Part shown: in pieces, positions 38,010 through 41,907 of the stretch
How the letters are laid out: every line of letters begins with the position of its first letter
Position numbering within the stretch: the first letter of the stretch is position 1
Assembly (NCBI GenBank): GCA_020250175.1
Contig: JADCEN010000062.1
Coordinates: 1 to 50,073 of the forward strand
Direction of reading: 5' to 3'
From: Rhodobacter sp.
GTDB lineage: Bacteria; Pseudomonadota; Alphaproteobacteria; Rhodobacterales; Rhodobacteraceae
Length of the DNA stretch: 50,073 nucleotides
Notes under the pieces: model-generated
Told to the model about the DNA's origin: nothing
Seen by the model: only the letters and a program-made list of their open reading frames with translations
Databases searched by the model: none
Program-made: the position numbers and the translations under genes

Positions 38010-38040
38010 TGTGATCACACCTTGGAAAGCTGTGATCACA
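38010..38040 (-). promoter_or_regulatory. Paired TGTGATCACA boxes upstream of sucC
   Basis: Two perfect 10-bp palindromes TGTGATCACA occur at 38010-38019 and 38031-38040, exactly 21 bp apart, so both face the same side of the helix. The same pair with the same spacing is found upstream of sdhC. A putative -10 TTATTC follows on the minus strand about ten bases after the proximal box. Confidence 0.85.
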
Positions 38041-38080
38041 TTTCAGCATTCATTAACCTGGGCTGCCCCGGCAAGGCGAC

Positions 38081-39274
38081 TCAGTTCAGGAAAATCGCGA
38101 AAAGCCCGCTGTTGCCGCTTACCATGTCGTCAAAGGCCATCACCTGCTCGCCGGTGGCAACCCTGCCCTTTTCCAGATAGGGCAGGGCATCAGCCCCCTG
38201 AATCCAGCCCGCCACGTCGATGGGGCGCGGGTCGGAGAACAGGCGGGCAAGGTTCAGCCCTGCATCTGGCCCAAGGCGCCAGAAGGGAAGCAGCACCTCA
38301 CCCTTCAGGATCGTTTCAACATCGCCCAGCACCGCAAGCCAGGCCGCCCCGGTGCCCTGCGGCAACACAAGGCCCGTGGCCGATGCCTGCCGGTCATTGG
38401 GCACCCATTCCGCGTTATCATCCGTCTCTGCCGCAACCCGCGCCCAGAAGACGCGGTTCTGCGCGATCATCGCCAGGAAATTGCCATGGGCCTGCGCCGC
38501 GCGGGCGGTATCGGGCGTCTGGTCCAGCATGCGCAGCAGAACGGAGATTGCGTCAACATCGTTGGTCGGGAAAAAGGCCATGACCTCATCCGGCAGCGGC
38601 GACAGATCGGCAAAGGCCGCCCGGCTGTCCATAACGGTGCGGATCGCCTCGGTCGGGTCATAGGCCAGCACGGTGTCGGCAAGGCCGCCCACCAGATGGG
38701 TATAGGCGGCAAGCCAGGCCGCATCGGCCACGTCAAAGCGCACCACCGGCGCGGGTGTTGCCGGATCACGCTCGGCCCATTCCCAACCCATGACGACCGG
38801 CCCGGCGATGTCCACCACAGACTCCACCTCCCCCCGTTTGCCGTCGGCATTCAGATCAAACCACAGGTCGGCAAAGTCGATGGTCAGGCCAAAGTCCGAC
38901 CCTTCGGCGATCTGTTGCAAGGGTTCGCGCGCCTTTGCCATGCTGTCTGACAGGTCGCGCAGCAGCCTGGCAAAAGCCGCCGGATCGGGCGGGCTGGTGG
39001 GCGGGCTTTCTGCCAGCGGCAGGGGCAGCATGGGCACCATCGCGGTGGCGGGCATGCCAGCCGCGTATTGCACCTGCGCGCCCCGCTCCAGCGCGGCCAG
39101 AAACCGAACGGCCCCCAGTGCGAAGCGGTCTTCGTCGGCAGGCGCGGGCAGGGCAGCCAGCCGAAGCTCTGTCGCGGCAAGACCATTCGTCCCGATTTCG
39201 GCGGAAAGGGTCGTCTGGGCAAAGGCAGACCCCGCGACAAGGGCAAAGGCACAGGCAAGTCGGCAAATGGTCAT
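38081..39274 (-). CDS. Hypothetical periplasmic protein with EF-hand-like loop
   Basis: The 397-residue product has a clean signal peptide (MTICRLACAFALVAGSAFAQ) and one EF-hand-type calcium loop DLNADGKRGEVE (D-x-N-x-D-G...E) near residue 140. The rest is helix-rich without motifs that I recognise, with conserved-looking LMPFWRLGPD..NLARLF-type text near the end (LPFWRLGPDAGLNLARLFSD). It lies between mdh and sucC on the same strand, so it may be cotranscribed with mdh. The function is unknown. Confidence 0.7.
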   Translation of the reverse strand: MTICRLACAFALVAGSAFAQTTLSAEIGTNGLAATELRLAALPAPADEDRFALGAVRFLAALERGAQVQYAAGMPATAMVPMLPLPLAESPPTSPPDPAAFARLLRDLSDSMAKAREPLQQIAEGSDFGLTIDFADLWFDLNADGKRGEVESVVDIAGPVVMGWEWAERDPATPAPVVRFDVADAAWLAAYTHLVGGLADTVLAYDPTEAIRTVMDSRAAFADLSPLPDEVMAFFPTNDVDAISVLLRMLDQTPDTARAAQAHGNFLAMIAQNRVFWARVAAETDDNAEWVPNDRQASATGLVLPQGTGAAWLAVLGDVETILKGEVLLPFWRLGPDAGLNLARLFSDPRPIDVAGWIQGADALPYLEKGRVATGEQVMAFDDMVSGNSGLFAIFLN

Positions 39275-39323
39275 GCTGATCCCCGCTGGGAAACCGGGCC
39301 CTCTGGGCCTGCCGAAGCAAGAT

Positions 39324-39341
39324 GCGCGCCCGGAGGCGCGC
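39324..39341 (-). other. Hairpin downstream of mdh
   Basis: GCGCGCC (39324-39330) pairs with GGCGCGC (39335-39341) around CGGA in the 96-bp gap between mdh and the next gene. The minus strand continues ATCTTGCTT without a solid T-run, so it is a weak terminator or a stability element. Confidence 0.4.
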
Positions 39342-39370
39342 CTGCAACCCTGGACATAACCGACGAAAGG

Positions 39371-40333
39371 TCAGGCCAGTTGCGGGTCGATGGCCTTGCA
39401 GGCCGCGATCAGACCCTTCACCGAGTCCACCGATTTCTGGAACATGGCTGTTTCGTCCCTGTTCAGCCTGATCTCGATGACCTTCTCGATCCCGTGCGCG
39501 CCGATGACGGTGGGCACGCCCACATACATGCCGTTCAGCCCGTACTGGCCTTCGCACCAGGCGGCGCAGGGCAGGACGCGCTTTTGGTCCCTGAGGTAGC
39601 TTTCCGCCATTTCGATGGCCGCGGTTGCGGGCGCGTAATAGGCCGACCCGGTTTTCAGCAGCCCCACAATCTCTGCCCCGCCATCGCGCGTGCGCTGGAT
39701 GATCGCATCCAGCTTTTCCCTGGTGGTCCAGCCCATGTCAACCAGATCGGGCAGTGGAATGCCCGCCACGGTGGAATAGCGGGCCAGGGGTACCATCGTG
39801 TCGCCATGGCCGCCCAGGACGAAGGCCGTCACATCGCGCATCGACACGCCGAATTCCAGGCTGAGGAAATGGCGAAAGCGGGCCGAATCCAGCACGCCGG
39901 CCATGCCGGCCACGCGGTTTGCGGGCAGGCCCGAGTATTTCTGCAACGCCCAGACCATCGCATCCAGCGGGTTGGTGATGCAGATGACAAAGGCGTTCGG
40001 TGCGTGCTTCTTGATGCCTTCGCCGACCGACTTCATCACCTTGAGGTTGATGCCTAGAAGATCGTCGCGGCTCATCCCCGGCTTGCGCGGCACGCCGGCG
40101 GTCACAATGCAGACATCGGCGCGGCGCAGAAAGGCATAGTCGTTTGTGCCTGTCATCTCGGCGTCGAACCCGGCAGAGGGGCCGGACTGCGCGATATCCA
40201 GCGCCTTGCCCTGCGGCGTGCCTTCGGCGATGTCGAAAAGCACGACATCGCCAAGTTCCCTGAGCGCTGCAAGATGCGCAAGCGTGCCGCCGATCTGTCC
40301 TGCACCGATCAGTGCAATCTTGGGTCTGGCCAT
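39371..40333 (-). CDS. mdh: Malate dehydrogenase
   Basis: Mdh oxidises malate to oxaloacetate with NAD. The 320-residue protein belongs to the LDH-like MDH group: [10 protein letters not shown] dinucleotide motif, the R-x3-M-x-R substrate loop ([12 protein letters not shown]), [10 protein letters not shown], the catalytic histidine in [10 protein letters not shown]. The ATG at 40333 gives the normal length. It heads the minus-strand TCA block; the frame stays open far upstream but without family sequence. Confidence 0.97.
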
Positions 40334-40796
40334 TGTTCCGTTCTCCGGGTCGGGTTGCATGACAGGGATGGGTAGTCTCTTGGGGCGCGACTCGCAAGCA
40401 TGCTGCATTGCAGCGCCAGCGCTGGCCGTCACTTTGGCCATCTTTGCGCCAAACCACGCCGACCGGGCACACCCCGGCAGGACAACCGGTGCCGAAGCGA
40501 TTCGGCCGGGGTCAAGGCAATCCGGGGACGGGCGCACGCCATGCGGTGCGACGGGCAGCCCCCCGGTCCAGCCCGGCAGGCTTGCCGTTGCCAGTTTCGC
40601 CTTTACCCAAATCGTAGCCACTGCCGCCGCCTGCCGCCCGATCGAGGATGCCGATCTGGCCCGGACCGCCGCGCAGGGCGTAGTTGCCAGGGTGGATGCA
40701 AAGATCGTAGAAGACCTGCATGTCGTCGCCCTGCGGGTGCTGATTGCCAGGGTCGGCGCGATTGCCGCAGCATTGTCATGCCAACGGGGGAACCCA
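40334..40796. other. Divergent gap between mdh and the NnrU gene
   Basis: 463 bp that should hold both promoters. A plus-strand frame reads helix-like [20 protein letters not shown] followed by [20 protein letters not shown] (about 40640-40770) and may be a remnant or chance; no start or family is evident. Otherwise I see nothing in it. Confidence 0.4.
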
Positions 40797-41354
40797 ATGT
40801 TTTTTCTGATCACCGGCGTCCTGCTGTGGTGGGCCGCGCATCTGTTCAAACGGCTTGCCCCCGATGCCCGCGCCGGCATGGGGGACAGGGGCAAGGGCCT
40901 TGTGGCGCTGGTGCTGGTCGTTTCGGTGATCCTGATGATCGTCGGATATCGCCGTGCGGATGTCATCGCGCTGTACGCGCCCTTGGCGGGCATGGGGCAT
41001 CTGAACAATCTGGCCATGCTGGCGGCAGTCTTCCTGTTCGGGGTCGGCGGCACCAAGGGCACCCTTTACACCCGGATGCGTCACCCGATGCTGTGGGGAA
41101 CCGTGATCTGGGCCGGGTCGCATCTGCTGGTGAACGGTGATCTGGCGTCGGTCATCCTGTTTGGCGGTATCGGCGCATGGGCGCTGGTTACAATGGCGGC
41201 GATCAACCGCGCCGGACCATGGGAGCGGCCTGTGGCGGGGCGCGGGATCAAGGGCGATGCGATGAACCTTGTGGGCACGCTTGTGGTCTACGGCCTGATT
41301 GCCGCCATCCATTCCTGGCTTGGCCACAACCCGTTCATGGGAACCTACGGATGA
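40797..41354 (+). CDS. NnrU family membrane protein
   Basis: The 185-residue integral membrane protein has about five to six helices and the NnrU family features [20 protein letters not shown] and [18 protein letters not shown] (steroid-methyltransferase-like fold). NnrU was first noted beside denitrification genes in Rhodobacter; here there are no nitrogen-oxide genes. GGGGGA precedes the ATG at 40797. Its stop overlaps the next start (ATGA), coupling it to the DUF1737 gene. Confidence 0.9.
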
Positions 41355-41554
41355 AACTTTACCGCTTTCTGTCGGATGATGACACGTCCGCCTTCTGCCA
41401 CAAGGTGACCGCCGCCCTGAACAAGGGATGGGAGCTGCACGGCGGGCCGACCTATGCCTTTGACGGCGCCAATGGCGTGATGCGCTGCGGGCAGGCAGTG
41501 GTGAAAGAGGTGCAGGGCACCTACACGCCCGACATCAAGCTGTCGGACCATTGA
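41351..41554 (+). CDS. DUF1737 small protein
   Basis: The 67-residue product [20 protein letters not shown] followed by AALNKGWELHGGPTYAF matches the DUF1737 pattern (start of a short alpha-beta protein with a conserved LNxGWxLxGGP). The ATG lies inside the stop of the NnrU gene. Function is unknown. Confidence 0.85.
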   Translation: MKLYRFLSDDDTSAFCHKVTAALNKGWELHGGPTYAFDGANGVMRCGQAVVKEVQGTYTPDIKLSDH

Positions 41555-41741
41555 CAAAGGGCGGTTCGGGCGAATTCCCCAAAGAGTACCGGCGTGGCGA
41601 AACCGTCGTCCATCCGCTTCCGCCCTGGTGTCGGCGGCGACCGGGTGCCGAGGTGCGCGCTTTACCGGCCCCCTGTCCGCCCTGTGTTCGCCCGGCGCAC
41701 GCGCCCGGTCCTGCGGCCTGATGGGCGGCGGCTGCATCATC

Positions 41742-41789
41742 GGGGGGAATGAGTTCAACCTGTGAAGGAGGAACAGCAAGTATTCCCCC
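41742..41789. repeat. Inverted repeat upstream of sdhC
   Basis: GGGGGAAT (41743-41750) pairs with ATTCCCCC (41782-41789) across 31 bases that contain GAAGGAGGAACAG. It might be an RNA leader element or a fortuitous hairpin. It lies 90 bp to the left of the paired boxes, so probably upstream of the promoter. Confidence 0.4.
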
Positions 41790-41876
41790 TTCAAGTGCGT
41801 GGAAGGTCCGGGCAGGCGGTTTCCCCGATGATGCGCCGAAGAAAGGCAGACGCGCTTGCGGCGATGCCAGGGCGTG

Positions 41877-41907
41877 TGTGATCACGCGGCAAAAACATGT
41901 GATCACA
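41877..41907 (+). promoter_or_regulatory. Paired TGTGATCAC boxes upstream of sdhC
   Basis: TGTGATCACG (41877-41886) and TGTGATCACA (41898-41907) are 21 bp apart, the same motif and spacing as upstream of sucC. The proximal box ends 143 bp before the sdhC start. Confidence 0.85.

Follow-up and report, generated by a model that had tools for sequence, protein, structure and literature searches.

Paired AkgR-type boxes 21 bp apart upstream of sucC and sdhC in Rhodobacter sp.: likely operators of a GntR/FCD activator

The window analyzed here, a stretch of 50,073 nucleotides from Rhodobacter sp. (GenBank assembly GCA_020250175.1, contig JADCEN010000062.1, positions 1 to 50,073), carries two operons of the tricarboxylic acid (TCA) cycle, each preceded by a pair of 10-bp boxes. 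The minus strand encodes sucC, sucD, sucA, sucB, lpd, and mdh, and the plus strand sdhC, sdhD, sdhA, and sdhB, all recognized by NCBIfam models above their cut-offs. A preliminary description of this DNA had reported boxes exactly 21 bp apart upstream of sucC and sdhC and had called the two operons divergent; positions, spacings, and orientation all hold, though the operons lie ~4 kb apart, with mdh between the two promoters. The boxes and the genes behind them are as follows.

38031..38040, minus strand: sucC-distal AkgR-type box (box 1 of the pair) (from the sequence; conserved in relatives)
38010..38019, minus strand: sucC-proximal AkgR-type box (box 2 of the pair), offset by 21 bp from box 1 (from the sequence; conserved in relatives)
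36709..37902, minus strand: sucC, encoding the beta subunit of succinyl-CoA synthetase, the first gene downstream of the sucC pair (NCBIfam NF001913 above cut-off)
41877..41886, plus strand: box 1 at sdhC, AkgR type, reading TGTGATCACG (from the sequence)
41898..41907, plus strand: box 2 at sdhC, AkgR type, offset by 21 bp from box 1 (from the sequence)
42051..42434, plus strand: sdhC, encoding the cytochrome b556 subunit of succinate dehydrogenase, the first gene downstream of the sdhC pair (NCBIfam TIGR02970 above cut-off)

Both boxes of the sucC pair (38010-38019 and 38031-38040) read TGTGATCACA and start exactly 21 bp apart, and the same start-to-start distance separates TGTGATCACG at 41877-41886 from TGTGATCACA at 41898-41907 on the sdhC side. 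All four contain the palindrome GTGATCAC. Single boxes with up to 1 mismatch number 6 in the window against 1.16 expected, a count reached in 0 of 100 shuffles; the two outside the pairs, at 23825-23834 and 42565-42574, are both unpaired. The box at 42565-42574, a lone TGTGATCACT within the sdhD reading frame, is probably a coding coincidence. Across the whole 3.89-Mb genome (G000), the spaced pair, scored over its 20 specified bases with up to 3 mismatches, occurs only at the sucC and sdhC sites and at no unrelated locus, with 0 matches for the reversed control. Exact TGTGATCACA is found in 3 copies genome-wide, every one in the sucC or sdhC promoters, and with up to 1 mismatch the word has 66 sites versus 8 for the reversed control.

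It is scarcely credible that the boxes are instead sites of the CRP/FNR type or of the regulator CceR. TGTGA and TCACA do resemble the half-sites of CRP, the site of which is TGTGA-N6-TCACA; however, the half-sites within each box abut without an N6 spacer, so that, as the preliminary description had maintained, the boxes do not fit CRP/FNR, and spacing against the known motifs rules these out. CceR we take to be the LacI-family regulator RSP_1663 of R. sphaeroides. In favor of a role for it, succinate dehydrogenase is among the predicted targets of RSP_1663, but the motif predicted for this protein, [A/G/T]GTT-N6-8-AAC[A/C/T], differs from the boxes (PMC4344238, as far as its available text goes). 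The latter read TGTGATCACA/G, not GTT-N6-8-AAC; separate CceR sites elsewhere in the promoters were not searched for.

Conservation of the pair in relatives, on which the preliminary description had let its proposal stand or fall, was followed through 295 genomes of the family, representing 294 genera; the family is inferred from named loci, most of which, when the pair lies before sucC or sdhC, bear names of Rhodobacteraceae or related genera. The 21-bp pair (up to 3 mismatches) is present in 258 of the 295 genomes, against 3 of 295 for the reversed control, and 11 of the remaining 37 have a 20-bp pair instead. Exactly two pairs were found in about 172 of the 258 genomes, one in 53, and three or four in 33, for 30 of which the pair locations were re-searched; the extra matches beyond sucC and sdhC mostly carry 3 mismatches, among the matches listed. 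The fetched loci, most of them retrieved via the DNA pattern and some via SucC or GntR proteins, hold 177 distinct pairs with up to 2 mismatches, of which 166 precede sucC or sdhC (103 and 63, respectively, within 350 bp upstream), 1 sucA, and 1 lpd, with 4 at a locus edge and 5 before no query gene. These five are L179, L067, L407, L411, and L185, where L067 is a Streptosporangiaceae record, and L407 and L411 come from genomes of the class outside the family. Credible extra targets, in one genome each, are fumC (L179 in G042, where the pair precedes a class II fumarase gene), lpd (L184 in G289), and sucA (L028 in G177); the pair of L185 (G045) and a contig-end pair in L181 (G022) are without an assigned target gene. 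Outside the family, the pair (up to 2 mismatches) occurs in only 2 of 381 class-sample genomes, in neither case near suc or sdh. On a metagenome contig labelled Robiginitomaculum (L124), which may be mis-binned, a pair precedes the start of a sucC gene.

Some sucC and sdhC promoters have a third box in register, another 21 bp on, forming a three-box array, with the following examples (L285-type promoters).

G285:C18:4906-4957: three-box array
G197:C6:255056-255107: three-box array

A candidate for the protein that binds the boxes is encoded within the window itself.

25945..26595, plus strand: regulator gene of the GntR/FCD type, a proposed akgR orthologue whose product is the candidate regulator acting on the boxes (Pfam domains, aligned orthologues, co-occurrence)

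The gene lies downstream of lpd and is convergent with it. The longer open reading frame (ORF), 25849-26595, matches the Pfam domains GntR (43.9 bits, cut-off 27) and FCD (67.9 bits, cut-off 24.3), with the helix-turn-helix domain N-terminal and FCD C-terminal, the order that places the protein in the FCD subfamily of the GntR family; the start at 25945 was taken from the alignment of orthologues. Such orthologues (E <= 1e-30) are found in 275 of the 295 family genomes, with at least 73% identity among the matches listed. Among 192 genomes sampled across the class, matches at E <= 1e-50 numbered 3, all within the family; the other 189, judged from the order of listing to lie outside it, had none. 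In relatives, the gene is located near lpd, near sdhB (L357, L358, L360, and L361), or elsewhere, and the location near sdhB is consistent with the locus numbers in R. sphaeroides.

In R. sphaeroides, AkgR is presumably the GntR-family protein RSP_0981. The available portion of PMC4344238 predicts RSP_0981 to regulate sucCD, sdh, and sucAB-lpd, i.e., succinyl-CoA synthetase, succinate dehydrogenase, and 2-oxoglutarate dehydrogenase, and that of PMC6365646 describes AkgR as a transcriptional activator with GTGATCAC among its sites. Both pairs in the window are positioned upstream of genes that belong to these targets, sucC and sdhC. The gene at 25945-26595 most likely encodes AkgR. The preliminary description had left the choice between AkgR and CceR undecided: the motif GTGATCAC favors AkgR as the most likely binder, and the different motif predicted for CceR speaks against the latter, within what these sources make available.

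The regulator gene and the pair tend to occur in the same genomes. With the gene scored as absent in the 27 genomes that lack a match at 1e-50 or better, and with pairs of 21 or 20 bp admitted, 262 of the 295 genomes have both, 20 neither, 6 the gene only, and 7 the pair only (Fisher p 3.3e-20, uncorrected for phylogeny); for the 21-bp pair alone, the counts are 251, 20, 17, and 7 (p 1.7e-15, likewise uncorrected). A pair here is a match anywhere in the genome, and single matches with 3 mismatches may therefore be due to chance. Among the gene-only genomes, three are just 71-76% complete (G122, G147, and G166), in two the sucC match stops short of the start (G061 and G201), and the sixth, G281, is without a box at sucC; the pair-only genomes include three that are 73-77% complete (G096, G264, and G273) and one without a pair at sucC (G209). 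For 13 genomes that lack the gene, the sucC promoter was read: 9 are without a box (up to 2 mismatches), one has a single degenerate box (G017), and 3 have an intact pair. Where the gene is present, the 21-bp pair missing, and the promoter covered (10 genomes), 9 have two boxes 20 bp apart and one (G281) has none.

A further link between regulator and box comes from the promoter of the regulator gene. The 111 loci of this gene, of which 30 came from the orthologue search, 80 were fetched by place, and one (L266) was chosen for its visible box, reduce to 94 distinct upstream regions. Counted from the aligned start, the interval from -100 to +10 holds a box with up to 1 mismatch in 53 of these, including 44 with exact TGTGATCACA, and the stretch from -300 to -100 of the same regions holds zero boxes (18,800 control bases). 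The nearest TTGAC, TTGTC, or TTGCC precedes the start of the box by 16-19 bp, and by 17 bp in 42 of the 53 regions, so that the box overlaps the predicted -10 of the regulator gene. That one regulator acts at both operons, as the preliminary description had argued, is strongly supported by the conservation of the pair, its position at sucC and sdhC, its co-occurrence with the GntR/FCD gene, and the box in the promoter of that gene in many relatives. Neither of the outcomes named in that description as refuting its proposal, loss of the boxes in relatives or scattered pairs at many unrelated loci, was observed.

The same promoters bear on whether a paralogue, GntR-B (C38:109547-110203 of the same genome), binds the boxes instead of, or alongside, the window protein, which we consider very unlikely. 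GntR-B is also a GntR-family protein, similar to that of the window, and its genes carry related boxes. However, a word within 2 mismatches of TGTGATCACA is found in 16 of 30 upstream regions of GntR-B, 9 being exactly TTTGATCAAA and none exactly TGTGATCACA; the exact word instead precedes orthologues of the window gene, in 44 of the 94 distinct regions, and close orthologues of GntR-B, judged by E-value, appear to be present in fewer genomes. GntR-B was set aside as the binder, its own promoters carrying mostly TTTGATCAAA-type words. Besides the 9 copies of TTTGATCAAA, 3 of the 16 words upstream of the GntR-B orthologues (L236-L265) read TTTGATCACA, which suggests a sister operator at these genes.

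Returning to the window gene as the likely source of the regulator, the arrangement of the pairs relative to the core promoters can be considered. We predict the following promoter elements.

37957..37962, minus strand: TTGCGC, predicted -35 of sucC, beginning 78 bp beyond the box 1 start (by eye, letters checked)
37935..37940, minus strand: predicted sucC -10 (CATCAG), 16-bp spacer (by eye, letters checked)
41965..41970, plus strand: GTGACT, predicted -35 of sdhC, beginning 88 bp beyond the box 1 start (GTGAC in 49 of 60 sdhC promoters; letters checked)
41987..41992, plus strand: predicted sdhC -10 (TATTCA), 16-bp spacer (by eye, letters checked)

Relative to the predicted starts, the pair lies near -87/-108 at sucC and near -97/-118 at sdhC. 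A pair with up to 4 mismatches is present in 92 of 92 distinct sucC promoters and 60 of 62 distinct sdhC promoters, figures that show geometry and not frequency, as most of these promoters were fetched by the pair. A spacing of 21 bp dominates, with 96 occurrences at sucC and 60 at sdhC, the next commonest spacing having 4 and 2. In 49 of 60 sdhC promoters, the first GTGAC more than 60 bp from the start of the first box lies at a distance of 78-80 (3 promoters), 87-90 (36), 98-100 (6), or 108-110 (4) bp, with none between; counting all occurrences of GTGAC adds one more, at 116. In these 49 promoters, the distance from the pair to the -35 thus changes in steps of ~10 bp, i.e., by helical turns. 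The DNA that separates the pair from the promoter contains short A/T tracts at regular intervals, with a period of 9.9 bp at sucC and 10.3 bp at sdhC, the variance of the A/T profile being 2.11 and 1.17, respectively, versus maxima of 0.29 and 0.21 among 500 random-register controls, and the two profiles are correlated (r 0.76). Related sequences are not independent, and the phasing and A/T figures are accordingly descriptive.

We consider it likely that the boxes are AkgR operators and that AkgR, most likely encoded at 25945-26595, activates the TCA-cycle genes from these paired sites. Each 10-bp palindrome would probably take one AkgR dimer. Two dimers would then share a face of the helix, separated by two turns and lying near -87/-108 at sucC and -97/-118 at sdhC, an arrangement in which the 21-bp spacing fits cooperative binding. 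From there, the paired dimers might contact RNA polymerase from upstream, perhaps with the phased A/T tracts bending the DNA towards it, and would activate the genes of the cycle from 2-oxoglutarate to fumarate. In many relatives, AkgR probably also represses its own gene through the single box over the -10. We give an even chance to the fuller proposal, in which the single box over its own -10 represses and the two-turn pair, ~47-57 bp upstream of the -35s in the window and joined to them by A/T tracts, activates in a face-locked manner; if so, the sdhC promoter would have changed in length across the family only by whole helical turns.

Alternatively, AkgR on the pair could act as a repressor, or the pair could be a mere tuning site, with no activation from upstream, which appears unlikely. 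Many GntR/FCD proteins are repressors, and the single box over the -10 of the regulator's own gene fits repression. The pairs, however, lie far upstream of the predicted -35, off the core promoter and in helical phase with the -35, and AkgR is termed a transcriptional activator in the part of PMC6365646 that is available.

Several points weigh against activation by AkgR from the pairs as outlined above. The tie of the window gene to RSP_0981/AkgR rests on family, targets, and neighbourhood, and the promoter elements are predictions from sequence. Fisher's test on co-occurrence ignores phylogeny, one genome (G281) has the GntR gene yet no boxes at sucC, and three (G019, G114, and G256) are real exceptions, with an intact sucC pair and no detected GntR gene. 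No GTGAC was found in 11 of the 60 sdhC promoters, and no own-promoter box in 41 of the 94 distinct upstream regions or at the regulator gene of the window.

The regulator, although little studied, is already known in R. sphaeroides, as are its motif and its core targets, and the assignment itself is therefore not new. Possibly new are the spacing rule of the pair, the helix-phased distance, the A/T tracts, and the box in the regulator's own promoter. The available parts of the AkgR/RSP_0981 literature (PMC4344238 and PMC6365646) gave no description of the pair geometry, phasing, or own-promoter box, which the primary 2015 mBio paper on AkgR may contain, and no relevant title was found for the words TGTGATCACA or TGTGATCAC among the literature matches listed. 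In a large family (Rhodobacteraceae, judging from the named loci), these results connect the principal promoters of the TCA cycle with a single regulator, and the geometry suggests a way in which a GntR/FCD protein could act as an activator from an upstream position yet repress its own gene.

Two further genes were observed in the window. A 397-amino acid ORF on the minus strand (38081-39274), between sucC and mdh, matches nothing in Pfam or NCBIfam at E 0.001, and its homologues occupy the same place in several relatives. Downstream of sdhB, on the plus strand (46990-47853), lies a gene for a DUF1989 protein, which is outside the present finding.

Among known systems, McbR of E. coli, a distant homologue of the window protein, has targets and a site that differ from those described here. 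It is the closest solved structure to the window protein by sequence (PDB 4p9f; E 3.9e-18 over residues 22-205). PS417_07240 of Pseudomonas simiae, 32% identical to AkgR, is likewise a proposed binder of the GTGATCAC palindrome, but it regulates another pathway, deoxyribose catabolism, and the palindrome described for it is a single one, spanning -47 to -40 relative to the start codon (PMC6365646, available text). The AkgR regulon of R. sphaeroides shares with the present system the motif GTGATCAC and the targets sucCD, sdh, and sucAB-lpd, whereas, as far as the accessible text of PMC6365646 and PMC4344238 extends, the 21- or 20-bp pair, the phased distance, the A/T tracts, and the box over the regulator's own -10 are reported here only.

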